Source of the DNA: a virus
Length of the DNA: 28,560 nt
IMG/VR virus record: IMGVR_UViG_3300002835_000835
Span: 1 to 28,560 of that record
Reading direction: 5' to 3' (one strand)
How positions within the stretch are numbered: the stretch's first letter is position 1; every line of letters starts with the position of its first letter. The translations under genes were made by a program, and so were the position numbers. Shown one piece after another: positions 2,953 through 28,384 of this stretch. The notes below the pieces were generated by a model. That model was given only the letters and a program-made list of their open reading frames with translations. It was not told the origin of the DNA and did not search any database.

Positions 2953-3317
2953 TAACTTTCCTCAATGATCTCTAAACCTTCAACTTTAATTTTTACATTT
3001 GGATCAGGTTTTGGAGCATTTGGATCTTCCCATTGACATGTTTCTTCATTCAAAACCCATGTAATTGTTTCATCAAATGCAGGTTTTGGAGATATAAAAG
3101 CATTACGAGTTTCATCATAAACATACCCAATACCCGCGTAATTTTTACGGAATGTAGCGTTGTAAGAAGTTTGTTTCCAATTTGTATAACCGCCTGACCA
3201 TTCAGTTAAAAAAGCAATACCTGATGCTTCTTCATTGTTTGGATCTAGTACATCATTACTAACAACATTTACTTCAAGAACAATGTTGTTTTCATCTAGT
3301 TTTGCAAAATGTGCCAT
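2952..3317 (-). CDS. Tail-associated protein of the MAHFAKLDENNIV family
   Basis: A 121-residue protein. The start at 3317 is preferred over an in-frame upstream ATG at 3347, because the upstream gene's TAA overlaps it exactly (TAATG) and the N-terminus MAHFAKLDENNIVLEV is a recurrent opening of small phage structural proteins. Aromatic-rich stretches (SGGYTNWKQTSYNATFRKNYAG, FISPKPAFDETITWVLNEE) suggest a compact beta fold. The protein ends with an acidic tail containing PNAPKPDPN. Such proteins are usually encoded among tail fibre genes of aquatic phages, and their exact role is unknown. Here it sits between two tail-tip/adhesin genes, consistent with a small fibre or fibre-connector subunit. 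Confidence 0.78.
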   Translation of the reverse strand: MAHFAKLDENNIVLEVNVVSNDVLDPNNEEASGIAFLTEWSGGYTNWKQTSYNATFRKNYAGIGYVYDETRNAFISPKPAFDETITWVLNEETCQWEDPNAPKPDPNVKIKVEGLEIIEES

Positions 3318-16609: not shown

Positions 16610-17860
16610 TTAACCAACGGGATCATAGCCAAATTCGTTGATACTGTCACCGTCAAACCATAAATCTTTGGCCGGAATTTTCATACTAATTACATGGCCT
16701 TCTTCTAAATTACTTAATAAGTGGCTATCTGCATAAGAAGGTGAAAGTGTGACCCAATCGCCAGGATTGATCCTGTCCACTTCTTTTGGAACTGCTCTGT
16801 AAATAGTTACCATTTCGTTAGGCTTGTTTTTAATTCTTTGTAAAGCCGCAACGCTTTCTCTATCAGATTGATCCATGCCTGTTGTATAAATGTTTGGCCT
16901 TGCATAAAAATCAGGCATCATTTCTTCAATGTAAGTAGCAGGAGAACCAAATTCATCTGCTCGTCTAGGCGCTTGATGGTATCCGCGATAATCAGTAACA
17001 GGTTTATTAACTAATTGACCGCCATCATCAAGGGTAGGCGCTGTAATGTTTCCATCAATTCCTGTTGGGTCATCTTCCATTCCAGGAATTACAGGCAATA
17101 AAACGCAACGGCAGTGCGGGTGAGCAGGGGGTTGGGTATCTCCTGATGCAAATGTTTGCCCAATAACAATTACTTGTCCGTCATTCTTTGCGCACACATC
17201 ACACGGATCAGATACGGCCCATTGCATCTTTTGCAATTCTGCATCTTTGTAACTTTGAATAGACCCAAAAGACATGGCGCGGCTCTGTTCAGTAATTGCA
17301 ATAGTAAGAGCGCGGCTCGGATTTGCTACATGCCTTCCAATCATTACAGCGGCACTTTCAGCATCTAAACCAGCGGCAATTGAGTCAGAAAGAGCAGTAC
17401 CTAAATTTACAATAGTTTCTTTATTAAAGTTTTTGAAATAACTATCAGCGCCCACTAATTGCAAATAAGCCTCAAATCCTTTACTGGGATTAAGAAGTAA
17501 GGCCGTTACTCTGTCTCCTGGTTTCCAATTATCCCAATTAACTTCAATGTCATCAGCCTTGTTTGCCTCACGGGTTTTGCGTAACCATTCTTCTGCGGCT
17601 ACTCGCCCCAAAACATACGCTTCAGCCCATGCTCGCATTACTGCTTTTTTTATAGGCTCATCATTAAGATAAACATTAAGTAAAATCCATGAACGAGCGC
17701 GTACACGATCTTGCGTAGGGTTATCAGTAGGTTGCGGTTGCGTCTCCTGGTATTTATTAAAAACTCTTTTGAAGTCTGCTACCTGGTGCAGTGCCGCCCT
17801 GATTTTCACTGCGTTCTTTGCCGCTAAGCGCCCATCTGCCTTGAGAGCGCCCTCAATCAT
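16610..17860 (-). CDS. MuF-like minor head protein with ADP-ribosyltransferase-like C-terminus
   Basis: A 416-residue protein overlapping the portal stop by ATGA, the usual place for a MuF-type minor head protein. Residues about 1-260 hold the MuF region, ending in the zinc-binding-type pattern DPCDVCAKNDGQ (about 217) and PPAHPHCRCVLLPV (about 248). The C-terminal 130 residues carry an IYRAVP arginine motif (about 352), a TLSPSYA stretch (about 372) and INEFGYDP near the end (about 409). In that order they resemble the R-S-E motifs of ADP-ribosyltransferases, which are known to be fused to MuF proteins. If active, the domain could be injected with DNA. The catalytic reading is inference. Confidence 0.78.
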   Translation of the reverse strand: MIEGALKADGRLAAKNAVKIRAALHQVADFKRVFNKYQETQPQPTDNPTQDRVRARSWILLNVYLNDEPIKKAVMRAWAEAYVLGRVAAEEWLRKTREANKADDIEVNWDNWKPGDRVTALLLNPSKGFEAYLQLVGADSYFKNFNKETIVNLGTALSDSIAAGLDAESAAVMIGRHVANPSRALTIAITEQSRAMSFGSIQSYKDAELQKMQWAVSDPCDVCAKNDGQVIVIGQTFASGDTQPPAHPHCRCVLLPVIPGMEDDPTGIDGNITAPTLDDGGQLVNKPVTDYRGYHQAPRRADEFGSPATYIEEMMPDFYARPNIYTTGMDQSDRESVAALQRIKNKPNEMVTIYRAVPKEVDRINPGDWVTLSPSYADSHLLSNLEEGHVISMKIPAKDLWFDGDSINEFGYDPVG

Positions 17861-19787: not shown

Positions 19788-20789
19788 ATGAACTTAGTAG
19801 AGAAGGCAGTTCAACACGGTGGCAAACTTGCACCCCTGGTAATTCCTCACGGATTAACTAGCGGTACAGGGCTAATGAACCCATCAATTTTTATTGATGA
19901 CAAAGGCAACATTCTTGTGAACTTACGCCATGTTAATTACACGCTGTACCACGCAGAAAATGATCAAAGGTTTCCTAGCCGATTTGGGCCACTGTCGTAT
20001 CTGCACCCTGAAAAGGATCGCCGTTTAGTAACAGTCAATTATCTATGCCGCCTCAATGATGATCTTGAGATGACCCACCATGCCAAAGTGGATACATCTG
20101 AATTAGATGTTGAACCTATTTGGGAGTTTGTAGGTGAAGAAGATTGCCGCGTTATTCAGTGGCTAGATGATTACTACCTAGTGGGAGTTCGCCGCGATAC
20201 AACAACTAATGGCGTAGGCCGCATGGAGTACAGCCGGATTGAGATTGACTGGGATAACTGGGCAGTCAAAGAAGTCAGGCGTGTGCGCATTAAAGCCCCT
20301 GCTCCTGATGCTTCTTATTGTGAGAAGAATTGGATACCCGTCCTAGATAAGCCTTACCACTTCATCAAATGGACTATGCCAACAGAATTAGTTTATGCCA
20401 ATCCCATAAGCGGGGAGTGTGAGCAGGTATTTGTTAAGCCAACAGCGGTTGCGCCTAAAGATCAGCGTGGATCTAGCCAGGTCATACGGTGGGGCAATAT
20501 GTACATATCCATTACCCATGAAGTAGATCTGTTTAAGAATTACCTAAAGCAGAAAGATGCAATTTACCGTCACCGTTTAGTTGTATGGGATCAAGAACTA
20601 AATGTTGTGGGGCTAAGTAAGGAATTCTCATTCTTAGATGCTCGCGTTGAATTCTGTGTAGGGGCGGCGGTTCACAAAGGTAACCTTTTGGTGTCTTTTG
20701 GTTTCCAGGATAACGCCGCTTTTGTCTTGCAAGTACCTGGTGTAGTGGTAGAAGATCTGATTGTGGAGGCATTAGCGTATGAAAATTGA
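19788..20789 (+). CDS. Beta-propeller glycosidase-like protein (GH130/GH43-like)
   Basis: A 333-residue protein. Repeated blades can be read: NPSIFIDDKGNILVNLRHVN, then CRVIQWLDDYYLVGVRRD, then EKNWIPVLDKPYHFIKW, then GSSQVIRWGNMYISITHEVD, and finally EFCVGAAVHKGNLLVSFGFQ with following DNAA. This resembles five-bladed propeller proteins related to GH130 phosphorylases and GH43-type glycosidases that are found near glycosyltransferase genes. It has no signal peptide. It is the first gene of the opposite-strand cassette and overlaps the next start by 11 nt. A sugar-processing or sugar-binding role is plausible, but catalytic residues cannot be assigned with confidence. Confidence 0.65.
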   Translation: MNLVEKAVQHGGKLAPLVIPHGLTSGTGLMNPSIFIDDKGNILVNLRHVNYTLYHAENDQRFPSRFGPLSYLHPEKDRRLVTVNYLCRLNDDLEMTHHAKVDTSELDVEPIWEFVGEEDCRVIQWLDDYYLVGVRRDTTTNGVGRMEYSRIEIDWDNWAVKEVRRVRIKAPAPDASYCEKNWIPVLDKPYHFIKWTMPTELVYANPISGECEQVFVKPTAVAPKDQRGSSQVIRWGNMYISITHEVDLFKNYLKQKDAIYRHRLVVWDQELNVVGLSKEFSFLDARVEFCVGAAVHKGNLLVSFGFQDNAAFVLQVPGVVVEDLIVEALAYEN

Positions 20790-21342
20790 GCAATTAGTTA
20801 TAGAACTATCTAAAGATCCGTTCAATCCAGCGCTTAATTTTGATGTAGCGGTGGAGTATGAGAGGCAAAACCAAACAGCATCAGCCGTTTCTTTCTATTT
20901 GCGTACCGCTGAATACGGTCATATAACGCACCCCACCCTGGTTTATGCGTCACTTCTTAAAGCGGCCCATTGTTTTGATGACCAAAATGACCGCCAGGCA
21001 ACTGTGAGTAATTGTTTATTGCAGGCTGTGGCTTATTTGCCGTACCGTCCTGAAGGTTATTTTTTACTAGCCCAGTTCCATGAACGCTTAGGCCAATGGC
21101 AAGAGTGTTACACCTGGGCAAACATTGGATTGCATCATCAACTTAACTCAGTGCTTCCTGTTCATGTTGGTTATGAAGGTCAATATGTGCTGTTGTTTGA
21201 AAAGGCAGTAAGCGCCTGGTGGATCGGGCGCGCAGATGAAAGCATTGAAATACTAAAACGATTAAATGAAATGGACATAGAGCCAGCGTACAAATCCGCA
21301 GTGCAGCACAATCTTGAAAGGATTGGCCATGCTTCTGTTTGA
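20779..21342 (+). CDS. TPR-like helical repeat protein
   Basis: A 187-residue protein. Its helix-turn-helix units of about 35 residues include PFNPALNFDVAVEYERQNQT, SAVSFYLRTAEYG, RPEGYFLLAQFHERLGQWQE and WIGRADESIEILKRLNEMDI, which have the small/large residue spacing of TPR or Sel1-like repeats. A GGAGG lies at 20765-20769, 9 nt before the ATG. It shares 11 nt with the preceding gene and 14 nt with the methyltransferase, forming a tight three-gene operon. Similar modules occur fused to glycosyltransferases, so it may scaffold the other two enzymes. No transferase domain is seen. Confidence 0.7.
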   Translation: MKIEQLVIELSKDPFNPALNFDVAVEYERQNQTASAVSFYLRTAEYGHITHPTLVYASLLKAAHCFDDQNDRQATVSNCLLQAVAYLPYRPEGYFLLAQFHERLGQWQECYTWANIGLHHQLNSVLPVHVGYEGQYVLLFEKAVSAWWIGRADESIEILKRLNEMDIEPAYKSAVQHNLERIGHASV

Positions 21343-22003
21343 TGTTGGCGCTAATCGCGGTGACGCAGTGCTTGCAGGGCTTAACCAGGGATACCGCGTA
21401 ATAGCCTTAGAAGCCGCTCCACGCGTGTTTTCAGAGTTAGTTAGTAACTTTATCTATAACCCAAATGTTGTGCCTCTTAGAATGGCCGTAGCAAGTGCTA
21501 ACAACATGCGCGCTAAATTTTATGAGGCTGAGGAAGATGGGCTCAGTACGCTAAACATAGATTGGCTCACTCATAAAGATCTTCCATACGCAGGAAAACC
21601 TCACCGTGAGATTGAGGTAAACACAATTACTTTAGACACACTTGCAGATAAGTACGGCAACCCTGATCTAATTAAAATTGATGTTGAGGGTGCTGAGTGG
21701 GAAGTATTTGCAGGAATGACACGCAACTACGGTGGCATGCTTTGTTTTGAGTGGACATTTGAAACAATTAAACATCATGAAGCCCAATTAGATTACTTGC
21801 ACACATTGGGCTATAAAGAAATGGCCGCGCAATACATTGTGAACCATTTAGAAGCACCCCAACAATGGGGTCAATTGCAATCCAATAATGACAAGCAACT
21901 TTATGCCTGGCATCAACTCACATCTGATGAATGGATAGACGGCGGTTGGAAAGTTGCCAATTTACGCCCTACCGCAGATGTAGGAATGTTATGGGTTAGA
22001 TAA
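21329..22003 (+). CDS. FkbM-family SAM-dependent methyltransferase
   Basis: A 224-residue protein. The ATG at 21329, with AAAGGA 6 nt upstream, is preferred over an in-frame TTG at 21314. Motif I (DVGANRGDAVL, about residues 4-14) forms the SAM-binding loop, with an acidic residue after strand 2 (ALEAAP). The second FkbM signature is PDLIKIDVEGAEWEVFAGM (about 110-128). Family members O-methylate sugars or polyketides. The operon with a propeller glycosidase-like protein suggests methylation of a glycan, either the host surface polysaccharide or one attached to phage fibres. The stop codon is 4 nt from the convergent stop of the glycine-rich gene. Confidence 0.85.
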   Translation: MLLFDVGANRGDAVLAGLNQGYRVIALEAAPRVFSELVSNFIYNPNVVPLRMAVASANNMRAKFYEAEEDGLSTLNIDWLTHKDLPYAGKPHREIEVNTITLDTLADKYGNPDLIKIDVEGAEWEVFAGMTRNYGGMLCFEWTFETIKHHEAQLDYLHTLGYKEMAAQYIVNHLEAPQQWGQLQSNNDKQLYAWHQLTSDEWIDGGWKVANLRPTADVGMLWVR

Positions 22004-22022
22004 CTTTTTATTGAAAAGTTAT
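22000..22022. terminator. AT-rich palindrome spanning two convergent stop codons
   Basis: ATAACTTTT (22000-22008) and AAAAGTTAT (22014-22022) form a perfect 9-bp stem with a 5-nt loop. Both the plus-strand TAA (22001-22003) and the minus-strand TAA (22010-22008) lie within it. A/T runs on each side would allow a weak bidirectional terminator, but only one G-C pair is in the stem. Confidence 0.4.
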
Positions 22023-22823
22023 GCTCCCATTTCCTGTCCAGTTGTAAATTCTAAAACCACCTGTTGTTGTGACGGTTGGAGAACCAGTTGTAGATGACGC
22101 TGCGGGAAATGTATCCGGATAGCGAACAATCACACGACCCGATCCACCAGGTACGGCTAAACCGCCGCCTCCGCCGCCTCCGCCAGTGTTTGCAGTTCCA
22201 GCAACTCCACCATCACCACTAGGGCCGCCACCACCAGCACCGCCACCGCCTGCACCGCCTGCACCGCCTGTGTAGTATCCGCCGCCGCCGCCTCCGCCTG
22301 CGTAAGTAACAGAAGATCCGCTAATGCTTGAAGTTAAACCTGCACCACCTGCACCACCTACACCACCACCACCATTTCCACCAACAGCATTTTTTCCACC
22401 GCCGCCTCCGCCTGCGTTATCAGGAGGATTACCTGAGCCGCTTCCGCCATTGTTTCCTTGTCCGCTAGTGCCAGCGCCATTTGAAACGCCTGTTGCGCCA
22501 CCGCCGCCTGAGCCACCATTTGATCCTGAAGCAGAGTTTGGCGTTGCACCTCTACCTCCACCTGTTGTAGATATTGAGGCAAAAACTGAACTTCCGCCAT
22601 TGGTTGCTCCGCCTGCTCCACCTGCTCCAACGGTTACTGTGTAAGAAACTCCTGTGGATATGTTCAAACTTCCAGTTAATAATCCACCAGCACCGCCACC
22701 ACCTGAAGATGCGTCCGTATAACCGCCGCCGCGACCTCCACCTGCAACAACAAGGTATTCAACAGATGAAAGAACTGTTATTCCTTTTATTGCCCCAATG
22801 AGACCGCCTAGAACGCCACTCAT
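22008..22823 (-). CDS. Glycine-rich tail adhesin-like protein, paralogue 3
   Basis: A 271-residue protein. It opens with MSGVLGGLIG, then VEYLVVAGGGRGGG starts a long Gly-rich domain with many GGGG runs and the closing GSGRVIVRYPDTF. After it comes a short C-terminal module, GGFRIYNWTGNGSITF. Gly-rich domains of this type form tail-tip adhesins with variable loops between the glycine runs. The start directly follows the stop of the upstream paralogue (TAAATG). The three tandem paralogues suggest either subunits of a heteromeric fibre or gene duplication of the receptor-binding part. Confidence 0.78.
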   Translation of the reverse strand: MSGVLGGLIGAIKGITVLSSVEYLVVAGGGRGGGYTDASSGGGGAGGLLTGSLNISTGVSYTVTVGAGGAGGATNGGSSVFASISTTGGGRGATPNSASGSNGGSGGGGATGVSNGAGTSGQGNNGGSGSGNPPDNAGGGGGGKNAVGGNGGGGVGGAGGAGLTSSISGSSVTYAGGGGGGGYYTGGAGGAGGGGAGGGGPSGDGGVAGTANTGGGGGGGGLAVPGGSGRVIVRYPDTFPAASSTTGSPTVTTTGGFRIYNWTGNGSITFQ

Positions 22824-23792
22824 TTAATCCACTTGGCTTCTTGTGTAGCGAACAATTACAATACCTGAACCGCCTGGTGAAGCGGGTTGTTCAAAGTTAT
22901 TGCTACCGCTATTTCTATTGCCTCCACCACCGCCGCCAACATTAGCAAGACCTGAACCTGAACCATTAGGACTTCCAGCGACATTACCATCTCCGCCTTT
23001 TCCGCCGCCACCATTAGTAGCGCCAGCGGGGGTTTGTCCAGCGCGTCCAGCACTGCCTCCGCCGCCAAACCAAAATGTTCCGCCTATATTTTGACCGCTA
23101 GAAGTTACAGAGCCAATAGTGCTATATGTTGTAGTTCCTTGACCACCAGCGCCCGCACCAGGGGCTATTGCACCTGCCCCGCCTGTTGCGCCAGCGCCGC
23201 CTCCACCACCGCCGCATACATCAGAAGAAGAAGAACCAGTAAAATTTCCTGTTCCTCCACTATTTCCTTGAGTCGGTACTGCAGGACTTTGAGAAATATA
23301 ACCACCAACGCCCTCACTTTCGCCATCATTTATGTAGTAACTGCCGCCACCACCTGATGATCCTCCTGATTGACCTACTAATCTTGCGTCATAACCTGCA
23401 CCGCCGCCGCCTCTGCCGCCGCCAGTTGCCGTTATTGAACCAATAACAGAAGCATTTCCATTTGTTGTACTTGGGCCACCAGCACCAACGGTTACTGATA
23501 AATTTGAACTAGATGATTGAGAAGTTGCAAATATAATTCCGCCTGCTCCGCCTCCACCGCCCGCAGTGTAAACAACTGGCAACGAAGATGTTTTAGACCA
23601 ACCACTTCCGCCTCCGCCTCCGCCTGCAATAACTAATGCATCAAAAGTAAGCGCTTTGCCAGTGATGCCTAAAGTTCCATTATCAGTAAATTTGCGGTAA
23701 TAATAAGTTGCGTCAGAGTAAAGAGTGCCACCTGTAACAACAGGCTTACCCACAACAGATGATCCAATGAGGCCGCCCAAAACGCCGCTCAT
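22824..23792 (-). CDS. Glycine-rich tail adhesin-like protein, paralogue 2
   Basis: A 322-residue protein. It opens with MSGVLGGLIGSSVVGKPVVT, followed by GGTLYSDATYYYRKFTDNGT before the Gly-rich domain (ALVIAGGGGGGSGW). The domain ends with GSGIVIVRYTRSQVD, almost the same as in the FN3 protein at 1804-2952. Unlike the flanking paralogues, the FTxNGTL module is N-terminal to the Gly-rich domain. The gene overlaps its neighbour by ATGA. It is probably a fibre or adhesin subunit; receptor specificity cannot be read. Confidence 0.78.
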   Translation of the reverse strand: MSGVLGGLIGSSVVGKPVVTGGTLYSDATYYYRKFTDNGTLGITGKALTFDALVIAGGGGGGSGWSKTSSLPVVYTAGGGGGAGGIIFATSQSSSSNLSVTVGAGGPSTTNGNASVIGSITATGGGRGGGGAGYDARLVGQSGGSSGGGGSYYINDGESEGVGGYISQSPAVPTQGNSGGTGNFTGSSSSDVCGGGGGGAGATGGAGAIAPGAGAGGQGTTTYSTIGSVTSSGQNIGGTFWFGGGGSAGRAGQTPAGATNGGGGKGGDGNVAGSPNGSGSGLANVGGGGGGNRNSGSNNFEQPASPGGSGIVIVRYTRSQVD

Positions 23793-24691
23793 ACCGTCAA
23801 ACTTCCATTTCCAGTAAATTTGTAATAAGTAAAACCGCCAGTTTCATAGCGGGTTGGTGAACCAGTTGTTGCACTGGCAGTGTAACTTCCCGTGGCTCTT
23901 AAAATAACTATTCCGCTTCCGCCGTTACCGCCGCCGCCGCTATCAAATGGCCCAAAAACAGTACCGCCTCCGCCGCCACCGCCTGTTGAACCTGCGGCTG
24001 AAAATCCATAATAATTGCCTCCGCCCTGGTATCCATTACCGCCTCCGCCGCCACCGCCTACGCCAAGATAACCACCACCGCCGCCGCCTGCATAATTGCC
24101 TGACACTCCTGATGAGGTTGCACTTGCCCATACTGAATAAGCACCAGTTGCCCCACCGCCGTTACCACCTATCGCGTTATTGCCACTGCTACCACCACCA
24201 CCGCCTGCACCGCCACCGCCTGCACCTCCTGATGCTGACTCACCTGAACAACTGCCGCCAGCGTTACCCTGTCCTGAAGTTCCTCCGCCGCCTCCGCCAG
24301 TTAGCGAACTTCCTCCGCCACCTGAACCACCTGATTGACCCGCACCTGATGTACTTGGAGATTGCGCTCTACCGCCACCGACTGCGGTTGTAAATCCTGT
24401 TACTGATGAGTTTCCACCGTTTGTTGAATTGGTAGAATAACGGAAGAAAAATTCATTATTCCAACTGTAATTATCAGCACCGCCTCCGCCACCAACTGCA
24501 ACTGTTAAAACTGTGCCGCTGTTTAATGATTGTGTTGCGCTTACAACTCCACCAGCACCGCCGCCACCGCCGCCATATTGATAATTACCACCACCAGCGC
24601 CGCCGCCTCCGCCTGCAATAATAAGGCTTGTAAAACTTATTGCAGGAGGTTTACCAACTGCCGCAATTACACTGCCTAGAACACCACTCAT
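23789..24691 (-). CDS. Glycine-rich tail adhesin-like protein, paralogue 1
   Basis: A 300-residue protein. The start at 24691 (MSGVLGSVIAAVGKPP) is preferred over an in-frame ATG at 24721, because it forms a TAATG with the preceding stop and matches the paralogues' MSGVLG. The Gly-rich domain begins SLIIAGGGGGAGGG and ends GSGIVILRATGSY. A C-terminal GGFTYYKFTGNGSLTV module follows, as in paralogue 3. Dense GGN, GGGG and SGG runs suggest a glycine-rich sandwich fold rather than disorder. The codons for glycine vary, so the repeats are not simple recent expansions. Confidence 0.78.
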   Translation of the reverse strand: MSGVLGSVIAAVGKPPAISFTSLIIAGGGGGAGGGNYQYGGGGGGAGGVVSATQSLNSGTVLTVAVGGGGGADNYSWNNEFFFRYSTNSTNGGNSSVTGFTTAVGGGRAQSPSTSGAGQSGGSGGGGSSLTGGGGGGTSGQGNAGGSCSGESASGGAGGGGAGGGGGSSGNNAIGGNGGGATGAYSVWASATSSGVSGNYAGGGGGGYLGVGGGGGGGNGYQGGGNYYGFSAAGSTGGGGGGGTVFGPFDSGGGGNGGSGIVILRATGSYTASATTGSPTRYETGGFTYYKFTGNGSLTV

Positions 24692-25557
24692 TATGTAAGT
24701 CCATTGCCACTGATAATCCATGATGTAGAAGTAATTTTAACGGCTGTTGCAATACCAAACGCTGCAAGTGTGCGTGAACCTGTAGTTCCTGTACCGGCCA
24801 AAATTAAAGTGTCAGTTGTAATTGCAATAGTAACTGTTGTGCCAGTAGCAGCAATAAATACAACTGTTGTACCAATTGGGTAAGCAACTGATCCGTTAGC
24901 AGGGATAGTAACTGTACGGGTTGCAGTTGAATAAATATGTTCTCCAGCGTCCGCTGCAACTAATGTGTATGAACCAGTTGTTGCCGCTGCGCTTTGCGGA
25001 ATTCCCATATAACCAACACCTCTTGAAGATGTAGTTGTTGTTGCGTCTAAAACAAGACCTGTAACAGAAGTAGTAAAGTTGTTTGCGCCAGTCCAGGTGT
25101 TGTTTGTACCTAGAATATCTGCACCTGAAATACCTTGAGTACCAGTCAAACCTTGAGTACCGGTAGTTCCCTGAGCGCCAGTTAATCCCTGCAAACCTTG
25201 TGTACCCTGGCTACCAATTGTTCCTTGCAAACCTTCAGTGCCTTGAACGCCTTGTGTGCCTTGCGATCCTGTTAATCCCTGCGCACCAGTTATACCTTGT
25301 ACGCCCTCCGTTCCTTGCAAACCTGTTGTGCCCTGGATACCCTGCGTTCCAGTTGTGCCCTGTGTGCCAGTTGTACCTTGTGCGCCAGCGGCTCCCGCTG
25401 TGTAAGCATAAGCAAGAGAATTCCACGCGGTTACGCCATCACCCAACTTAAATTTAGATGTGTCGGTTTCAAGACCCATCTCGCCAGCGGCAAGTGTTGG
25501 ATTAGCGCTTGTCCACGCGCTTGCTATGTCGCGGCGATTTTGTAAGCGTGATGTCAT
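24691..25557 (-). CDS. Tail fibre protein with Mtd-like N-terminus and collagen segment
   Basis: A 288-residue protein. Residues 1-50 (LQNRRDIASAWTSANPTLAA, then GEMGLETDTSKFKLGDGVTA, then WNSLAY) form the short N-terminal attachment domain shared by many phage fibres and Mtd-type proteins. Residues about 58-150 are G-x-y triplets with a strong hexad G-x-Q-G-x-T period, and residues 150-288 form a C-terminal beta domain (AGEHIYSTATRTVTIPANGS, then WIISGNGL) similar to that of the protein at 3317-4204. AAGGA lies 7 nt before the ATG. A collagen triple helix would give a trimeric fibre. Confidence 0.83.
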   Translation of the reverse strand: MTSRLQNRRDIASAWTSANPTLAAGEMGLETDTSKFKLGDGVTAWNSLAYAYTAGAAGAQGTTGTQGTTGTQGIQGTTGLQGTEGVQGITGAQGLTGSQGTQGVQGTEGLQGTIGSQGTQGLQGLTGAQGTTGTQGLTGTQGISGADILGTNNTWTGANNFTTSVTGLVLDATTTTSSRGVGYMGIPQSAAATTGSYTLVAADAGEHIYSTATRTVTIPANGSVAYPIGTTVVFIAATGTTVTIAITTDTLILAGTGTTGSRTLAAFGIATAVKITSTSWIISGNGLT

Positions 25558-25579: not shown

Positions 25580-28384
25580 TTAGAATGAAACCGTTGCTCC
25601 GCCAGCATCAATTGTATATGTCCATGATGATGTAGTCGCTATTCCTGAATTATAGATGATGTCTGTGTTAGGTGTGACATTTCCGCCATCTAAATAATTA
25701 ACAATGTAGGCATTTGCGTCCTCACCAGTAACACCTTGAACACCTTGAGTACCAAACAAACCTTGCGGCCCTTGTAAACCTTGTACTGATTGCGTTCCTT
25801 GTGTTCCTTGCAGACCTTCAAGACCCTGTATTCCTTGAATTCCTTCAGTACCCTGAGTACCTGTTAAGCCCTGAGTACCAACTAAACCTTGCGAACCAGT
25901 TGTTCCCTGTGAGCCTGTAGTACCTTGAATACCCTGCGTACCTTGCGTTCCAACAATACCTTGAATTCCTTCTGTACCCTGAACTCCTTGAATACCAGTT
26001 TCACCAGTTGCACCTTGAGTTCCAGTTAATCCCTGAACTCCTTGTGTACCAGTAATTCCCTGTAATCCTTCAATGCCTTGAATTCCTTCAAGTCCTTGAG
26101 TACCAGTTGTTCCTTGAGAACCATTTAATCCGTTAGCACCCTGAGATCCAGTAACGCCTTGCAATCCCTCAAGTCCTTGAGTTCCCTGTGTGCCTTGTGT
26201 TCCGTTAGTTCCCTGGCTACCTGTGACTCCTTGCAATCCTTCAGTTCCCTGAGTTCCTTGCAGACCTTCTAAGCCTTGCGCGCCAGTCGTTCCTTGCGTT
26301 CCATCATGGCCCTGAATTCCTTGCACACCCTGCGTACCAGTAGTTCCTTGAATACCGTCTAAGCCCTGTGATCCTGTTTGTCCTTGAGAACCAGTTGTAC
26401 CCTGAACGCCTTGCGTTCCTTGAATACCGTTTAATCCTTGAGTACCTGTTTGGCCTTGAATTCCAGTGAAACCTTGAGTTCCCTCAACACCTTGAATTCC
26501 TTCTACGCCCTGCGATCCAGTTTCGCCTTGAGCGCCAACAAGTCCTTGTGTACCTGTTGCGCCTTGCAAGCCAGTAATTCCCTGAGCGCCTTGAGATCCA
26601 GTAATTCCCTGAGATCCTGTAACACCCTGCAAACCTTCTGCGCCTTGAATTCCAGTAGTGCCTTGAATTCCCTGCAAACCAGTAGTTCCCTGCGCACCTG
26701 TCGTACCTTGCGCGCCAGTTGTTCCTTGAACGCCCACGCTTTGAGTAATAAGAGAAATGTTATGATTATTGGCAAAGTTTGTTGTGCCTGTTCCGCTTGA
26801 GTCTAAAAGTGCAACAGGAAAAGTGAAATAACTATTAGGAACATTTGTAGGTGTGCCGTTTACTTGCCATTCTTGATAATTGGCAGAGTCACTTCTATCT
26901 TGAATAAAGAAGATGTCACCATTTTTAATGTTTGCTAATAAGAAATCAATGTCCACATTTGCATCTGTTAAATGAGATACATAAATGTTTGTTGAGTTAA
27001 TTTGTGTGGCATTATTCCATTTAATGTCACCAGCATTAGGGGGAGGTGTTTGTGAATTTGCTACCGCTACATAATCAAAAATAGATGATGATGTACCGCT
27101 TGCACCAGTATTACCCTGCACACCTTGAATACCATCTAAACCTTGAACACCCTGGCTACCAATAGTTCCTTGTACGCCTTGAGTTCCCTGCGCTCCAACA
27201 GTTCCCTGAATTCCATCAAGTCCTTGTGAACCTGTTACACCCTGAACACCAATAACACCTTGTGTTCCTTGCGCTCCATCTGCACCTTGAATACCTTCAG
27301 TTCCCTGTGATCCAGTTATGCCTTGAATACCCGTTGTGCCTTGCGCACCTGCAACACCCTGTAAACCTGTTAAACCTTGCGCGCCAATAGCACTCTGAAT
27401 ACCTTGTGTACCTTGAGCGCCTTCTAAACCTTGAAGTCCTTCAATACCTTGCGTACCTTCAACACCCTGCACACCAATAATTCCTTGCGCGCCTGTGTTG
27501 CCTTGAATTCCATTAAGCCCTTGAGATCCATCATGACCTTGAACGCCTTGTATTCCTTGCGCTCCTGTATTGCCTTGAATACCAGTTAAACCTTGAGAAC
27601 CAATTGTTCCAGTTGTACCTTGAGAACCTGTCTCACCAATTGCTCCTTGTGAACCAGTTAAACCTTGAGATCCAATTGTTCCTTGTGATCCCGCTCCACC
27701 TGTAGTTCCTTGAACACCAGTAATGCCCTGAACACCTTCAATACCTTGAGAACCAATTGTTCCTTGTATTCCTGTTGCACCTTGAACACCATTAGTACCA
27801 GTTATACCTTGCGCACCGATTGTTCCCTGAACACCAATTAAACCTTGTGTTCCAGTTGCGCCCTGCGCACCAATTGTTCCTTGAGATCCTGTAAAACCTT
27901 GAGTGCCGGTTGATCCTTGCACACCAAACGCACCTTGAATACCTTCAAGGCCTTGCGCACCAGTTGTGCCTTGCGTACCAACAGATCCTTGTACACCAAT
28001 TGAACCTTGAATACCTGTGTTGCCTTGAATACCTTGAGTTCCCTGACTACCTGCAACACCTTGCAAACCAGCGTCACCTTGAATACCAGTTAATCCTTGT
28101 GAGCCGGTAGTTCCTTGCGCACCAATTGTGCCTTGCGCGCCATTAAATCCTTGTACACCTGTAACACCCTGCGGGCCTGCAATACCTTGTGTGCCTTGTG
28201 CTTGATTAAAGCCACCGCCCTGTAAACCCTGTGTTCCTTGAACACCTTGCGCAGAAAAGTTTCCTGAAGGCCCTTGAATACCTTGAGCGCCTGGTTGCCC
28301 CGCAGGGCCAGGAGTAACAACAATAACATTTGGAGTTCCAACAGGGTTTGGATTGTTAAGAAAACTGTTTGGGTTGTATGTCAT
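25580..28384 (-). CDS. Long collagen-like tail fibre protein
   Basis: A 934-residue protein. After a proline/asparagine-rich N-terminus (residues 1-28), collagen block 1 (about 29-425) and block 2 (about 548-886) flank a globular insert (about 426-547, [20 protein letters not shown] through [11 protein letters not shown]). The last 48 residues ([14 protein letters not shown] through [10 protein letters not shown]) form a small beta cap. The triplets alternate as G-x-Q-G-x-[TNEVIA], a six-residue period with almost no Pro. A trimeric, rod-like fibre several hundred nanometres in contour is plausible at about 0.29 nm per residue. ATGA coupling with the upstream gene places it in the fibre operon. 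Confidence 0.85.
25720..26740 (-). repeat. Collagen block 2: 9-bp triplet repeat with 18-bp superperiod
   Basis: About 113 consecutive G-x-y triplets, most in hexads of the form GxQGxT. Gln is coded by both CAA and CAG and Gly by several codons, so the DNA copies are degenerate. Near-identical segments such as [17 protein letters not shown] recur several times. Confidence 0.85.
27110..28300 (-). repeat. Collagen block 1: 9-bp triplet repeat with 18-bp superperiod
   Basis: About 132 G-x-y triplets from residue 29 to about 425, with rare breaks (for example around TGGAGSQG and [15 protein letters not shown]). The residues after Q-G are mainly T, I, V, L and A. Threonine is frequent in the third triplet position, a possible O-glycosylation position as in bacterial collagens. 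Confidence 0.85.

Follow-up and report, generated by a model that had tools for sequence, protein, structure and literature searches.

What kind of object does a tailed phage make from a 934-residue protein with two long collagen-like arms, Gln at the end of roughly every other triplet and almost no Pro? The gene comes from a virus record in IMG/VR, linear and 28,560 bases long, the whole of which is called the window here. We found that its product belongs to a familiar class, the collagen-like tail fibres of phages, here with hardly any Pro and a Gln pattern. That it is the fibre of an uncultured tailed phage, trimeric and jointed, with arms matched in length, is the reading we prefer and to which we give slightly better than an even chance; within it, we infer that the fibre has a joint, is a trimer and folds back. 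The features of the gene and of its neighbour are as follows.

25580–28384 (–): collagen-like tail-fibre protein, 934 aa (ORF with an ATG start; Pfam Collagen; PHROG)
28310–28384 (–): N-terminal non-collagen 25 residues, presumed virion attachment (sequence)
27089–28309 (–): N arm, residues 26–432, Gln-hexad collagen-like (Gly-X-Y run analysis)
26738–27088 (–): middle beta-rich domain, residues 433–549, 117 aa, without a Pfam family (AlphaFold; viral structure matches)
25718–26734 (–): C arm, residues 551–889, Gln-hexad collagen-like, with a break at 866–868 (Gly-X-Y run analysis)
25583–25717 (–): C-terminal 45-residue module, presumed tip (stop codon at 25580–25582)
24691–25557 (–): 288-aa protein with an Mtd_N domain, a shorter Gln-hexad collagen block and a C-terminal domain (Pfam; hexad DNA pattern)

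The collagen-like gene and its locus

An initial annotation of this DNA had described a 934-residue collagen-like protein in which two long blocks flank a domain of about 120 residues, and this picture was borne out. The ORF at 25580–28384 (–) scores 363.4 bits with Pfam Collagen (PF01391; cut-off 27.2), which is the only Pfam family found in the whole protein at E ≤ 0.01, and its two arms enclose a middle domain of 117 residues. Gly-X-Y runs are present at residues 26–43, 47–58, 64–330, 334–432, 551–865 and 869–889, with a non-collagen stretch at 433–550 between the arms and short breaks in the N arm at residues 44–46, 59–63 and 331–333. The longest runs with Gly at every third residue are 89, 33 and 105 triplets. 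The best PHROG matches are tail fibre proteins, with low-complexity scores that are partly compositional and inflated; together with the Pfam score, these matches support a rod of collagen type in which a middle domain separates two long arms. An MTYNPN start, the same or near-identical, is common to many relatives. The C-terminal end differs among relatives, with 13, 14, 42, 45, 97–102, 168, 517 or 940 residues after the last collagen block outside one protein, L039, described below.

The window encodes a portal protein, a Mu F-like protein, a tape measure, a distal tail protein (Dit), several fibre-like proteins and glycine-rich proteins, and the locus is a siphophage tail region. The collagen-like gene lies in this tail module and is similar to tail-fibre families, the combination by which we recognise a tail fibre, with PHROG scores that are inflated by composition. 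Megablast of positions 3000–27500 of the window against phages gave no DNA match to a named phage, and for the protein in the capsid position only four phage records were found, all below 30% identity.

Directly downstream of the main collagen gene is the 288-residue hexad collagen with the Mtd_N domain (Pfam Mtd_N 39 bits, Collagen 57 bits), followed by three tandem glycine-rich proteins. By eye, the C-terminal part of this neighbour is like the C termini of several proteins related to the main one. The three tandem proteins (22008–24721, –) are Gly_rich_2 proteins that carry the motif MSGVLG at the N-terminus or close to it, and they are possibly tip adhesins that dock via that tag. A fourth Gly_rich_2 protein (1804–2952) is without MSGVLG. 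The Mu F-like head protein (16610–17860, –) matches phrog_2579, a family with the label ParB C-terminal domain, over its last 130 residues; on inspection it may resemble an ADP-ribosyltransferase-like fold. On the opposite strand within the tail module (19788–22003, +) there are a protein without a family match, a TPR protein and an FkbM-type methyltransferase.

The Gln hexad and the repeat DNA

In the three Gly-X-Y blocks longer than 60 residues, Gln is found at Y in 124 of 227 triplets, and Gln and non-Gln triplets alternate at 189 of 224 neighbouring-triplet steps (78/88, 25/32 and 86/104 per block). The hexad that the initial annotation had called strict is therefore real, and "strict" is an overstatement because 35 of the 224 steps break it (27 join two Gln triplets and 8 join two non-Gln triplets). 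When the triplets were shuffled 10,000 times, the number of alternating steps per block had means of 44.5, 16.4 and 51.5 and maxima of 63, 27 and 73. No shuffle reached the alternation observed in either of the two longest blocks, and in the shortest block the shuffle maximum of 27 exceeded the observed 25 of 32. Across 31 distinct relatives, 4,998 steps alternate, 989 are Gln-Gln and 293 have Gln at neither triplet, as compared to 3,093, 1,938 and 1,249 expected; the firmest part of the rule is thus that consecutive Gln-free triplets are rare. At the DNA level, self-match in the arms is higher at 18 bp (0.568) than at 9 bp (0.470), and arms with shuffled triplet order (500 shuffles) gave 0.535 and 0.533 (SD 0.010). 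For the whole ORF the values are 0.496 and 0.438, so the excess of 18-bp over 9-bp autocorrelation, whose absence would have spoken against the initial annotation, is present both in the arms and in the full gene.

We scanned viral contigs with a DNA pattern of six Gln at 18-bp spacing, which occurs at 54 places in the window and in at least 120 stretches of the viral contigs. Among the 80 loci listed from these at least 120, 69 have at least 30 triplets; 14 of the 69 alternate strongly, and 12 of those 14 fall into a Pro-poor alternating class with less than 0.1 Pro per triplet. One locus with the pattern (L162) is on the same contig as L048, so at least one listed locus belongs to the family studied here. 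The Gln hexad is not unique to this protein and recurs in other viral collagens. Pro poverty is not unusual either, as 12 of the 69 viral ORFs with the pattern alternate and have little Pro.

The repeat DNA had also been expected to be prone to copy-number change, an expectation that is unsupported at short range, where no indel was found up to 10.2% divergence. The longest exact direct repeat in the gene is 21 bp, and the agreement of Gly codons at lag 6 barely exceeds expectation (0.398 vs 0.369). Two other contigs carry the window gene without any difference over 2,802 nt, and pairs that diverge by 3.5, 5.1 and 10.2% (ungapped), which were picked as near relatives of the same length, have no length change. 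All but one of the near groups examined kept their length, the exception being L062/L063 vs L074 (851 vs 853 residues). The array is not hypermutable on a scale of up to 10% divergence, though the arms do differ in length among more remote relatives.

The middle domain and the lengths of the arms

AlphaFold predicts a beta-rich fold for the middle domain (mean pLDDT 78, pTM 0.71). We found the domain at 36 loci in a first search of viral contigs and in 279 relatives by profile search, 80 of which were kept, and it is present in the cultured Methylophilaceae phage P19250A at 51% identity. Among predicted viral structures there were 45 matches at E ≤ 0.001, many of them named collagen triple helix repeat, with TMq values of 0.75–0.89 in the first 19 rows; the structure alignments took in 23 and 27 chosen rows. 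Some of the matches are from giant viruses, with collagen-like predicted structures of Klosneuvirus, Indivirus and Marseillevirus, and the domain may accordingly be shared by phages and giant viruses. The window copy has no Pfam match at E ≤ 1, and a few other members have weak Pfam matches (best E 0.0096) to families other than PfN, Pf2 and PfC. A fold assignment from the PDB was tried and rejected, with no Foldseek match at E ≤ 0.001 and a best VIA-align Z of 5.9 among unrelated rows. In bacterial and archaeal genomes, we found 71 pattern-matching stretches, none of which was confirmed as this domain.

A homologous domain between two collagen blocks is the trait of the viral collagens that share this middle domain, and it is present in the window protein. 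P19250A gene 23 and uncultured Caudovirales proteins named 'Collagen triple helix repeat' likewise have two Gly-X-Y arms around a homologous domain; however, P19250A and its kind have Ser at Y and aromatic or other residues at X, whereas the window protein has Gln at Y. The P19250A protein at 21390–24995 (L045) is annotated as a tail length tape-measure protein, yet it is two-armed and collagen-like, with arms of 414 and 381 residues, lengths that also speak for matched arms. In L045, L040 and L042–L044, most Y positions are Ser, and X is Phe, Tyr, Ile or another residue; such Gly-aromatic-Ser repeats would, by composition, be odd for a collagen triple helix.

Arm lengths were compared in a hexad-type set of proteins that are closed at both ends and have a Gln fraction at Y of at least 0.45. 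This set has 44 rows including the window, and removal of 13 duplicates left 31 distinct proteins, or 30 without L039. The counted C arm of L073, L077 and L078 includes a domain of ~49 residues, and in proteins with an N-terminal domain the N arm is only the block adjoining the middle domain. Complete hexad-type proteins outside L039 have N arms of 194–458 residues and C arms of 172–405 residues. Two distant short-armed proteins, L107 (48/66) and L111 (54/21), were left out by hand, and in the 30 distinct proteins without L039 the lengths of the two arms correlate with r = 0.93 and a slope of 0.82. Independent contrasts without L039 gave r = 0.74–0.84 on a tree of domain DNA with three branch floors, and r = 0.79, 0.85, 0.88 and 0.90 on k-mer trees of the domain, the N arm, the whole gene and the C arm, respectively; the middle domain and the arms recombine, so these tree-based tests are imperfect. 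L039 (N arm 501, C arm 178 before three further domains) breaks the coupling, and with L039 included the plain r is 0.66 and the contrast r is 0.32–0.62. For 27 distinct length pairs without L039, the SD of N minus C is 23.8, whereas 100,000 random N/C pairings averaged 88 and never fell below 47.

Among fifteen disjoint nearest pairs, coupled changes of the two arms included 24/27, –60/–55, –28/–27, –75/–54 and –109/–82. Changes in one arm only were found in L059/L028 (–3 and +44) and L055/L053 (+1 and +50), and these count against matched arms; in the nearest pair L039/L082, the arm changes are opposite in direction. The comparison of L086 with L087 has two 81-nt gaps, at aligned residues 331 and 526, which are approximately equidistant from the domain on either side. 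L052/L030 has a similar pattern, perhaps from the same event, so one indel was possibly counted twice, and because repeat alignment is ambiguous the indel positions in both comparisons are approximate. Taken together, these data show that arm lengths covary about one for one in the hexad-type family, a new regularity that gives indirect support to the earlier idea of a hinge. Among the non-hexad relatives (18, cut to distinct length pairs) we found no arm coupling (r = 0.23); the ten Ser-type proteins among the 18 gave r = 0.65. A comparison of the arms for a mirrored residue pattern (four tracks, 41 offsets) gave none: offset zero did not stand out, and z did not exceed 2.9. In open-licence papers, we found no earlier description of a matched-arm rule or of a near-Pro-free Gln rod.

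In the reading we prefer, the fibre would fold back at the middle domain like a jack-knife, and selection would keep the two halves similar in length. Both arms could instead follow some other variable, for instance the length of the tail or how deep the host surface layers are, and neither folding nor arm pairing would then be needed. In nine records with a readable tape-measure frame, N-arm length follows tape-measure length (Spearman 0.74), but the C arm and the arm sum do not (0.38 and 0.48). Without L081, whose frame is perhaps incomplete, the values are 0.63 for the N arm and 0.12 for the C arm, and nine points are few. L072 also has long arms yet a tape-measure frame of 860 residues, and we consider common scaling of this kind fairly unlikely. 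The coupling could also be historical, if whole fibre genes with pre-matched arms were exchanged among phages and few independent length changes took place. Such exchange would fit the identical arm lengths of L052 and L086, whose middle domains come from different clades of the domain tree, and the correlation of N-arm and C-arm k-mer distances (0.79). However, contrasts on the single-arm trees without L039 are high (r = 0.85 and 0.90), with contrasts of like sign outnumbering those of unlike sign 20 to 6 and 21 to 4, and a purely historical origin seems to us rather improbable.

Arm chemistry and the folded fibre

The near-absence of Pro claimed in the initial annotation holds: the window arms have 5 Pro in 732 residues, together with 29 acids, no Lys and no Arg, and the whole 934-residue protein has 17 Pro. 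X and Y position preferences have no correlation with triple-helix host-guest melting values (Spearman 0.01), which counts against the preferred reading. For a single chain comprising the arms and the domain, AlphaFold gave pLDDT values of ~27–34 over most of the arms and no confident arm model. In 31 proteins, Glu is found 57 times at X and 388 times at Y, and Asp 30 times at X and 280 times at Y. This is the reverse of the viral, bacterial and human collagens tabulated in PMC3368898, in which Asp and Glu favour X over Y, a trait that is typical of collagens and not strictly defining, and it weakens an ordinary triple-helix reading of the arms.

The arms could accordingly be flexible or otherwise folded Gly-X-X chains, not triple helices, with the hexad serving solubility or some other packing. 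The scarcity of Pro, the lack of Lys and Arg, the acids at Y and the unconfident single-chain models are all in line with such chains. Nevertheless, Gly at every third residue is unbroken over long runs, the Pfam Collagen score is strong, and the preference of Gln for Y matches that of the bacterial and viral collagens in section 6 of PMC3368898; we regard arms of this kind as unlikely. In another reading, the fibre would fold at the middle domain into hairpin chains whose two arms run alongside each other over most of their length, and three such chains would form a six-strand bundle of extended helices in place of two ordinary triple helices. Hairpins would explain why the coupling has a slope of one, why the 81-nt difference is mirrored, why Pro, Lys and Arg are lacking and why acids are at Y, and we think them very improbable.

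For the trimeric, jointed fibre that we prefer, we infer that three chains wind into collagen-like triple helices. They would do so without stabilisation by Pro or by Lys and Arg, with Gln at Y contributing. The N end would attach to the virion, the C end would be the receptor-binding part, and the middle domain would be the joint and perhaps the point of trimerisation. If the arms are collagen-like, with a rise of ~0.288 nm per residue (PMC3368898), their predicted lengths are ~117 and ~98 nm; for the P19250A arms, the prediction is ~119 and ~110 nm.

Trimeric beaded rods have been proposed from electron microscopy for EPclB, a prophage fibre of E. coli O157:H7 (PMC3368898). EPclB as described there is like the window protein in having two Col blocks around a non-collagen domain (Col-domain-Col). 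In contrast, its middle is Pf2 and its ends are PfN and PfC (PMC3368898), none of which Pfam found in the window protein, and its arms are Pro-rich with charged residues (PMC3368898), unlike window arms with 5 Pro and no Lys or Arg. The arm lengths listed for EPclB in the same source are 157/114 and 190/114, with a difference in one arm alone. The spindle/axial fibril chain in PDB 8zxl and 9ius comes from a collagen-like fibre of known structure, in which about every second triplet has Gln at Y; unlike the window protein, it has a Pro-rich regular repeat. We found no paper on these two entries among open-licence papers.

A long collagen-like rod that is almost Pro-free and has no salt-bridge pairs is a natural test of what Gln contributes to triple-helix stability. 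Should the matching of arms hold as a rule, it would let the geometry of jointed phage fibres be read from sequence, and it could be tested on a cultured phage.
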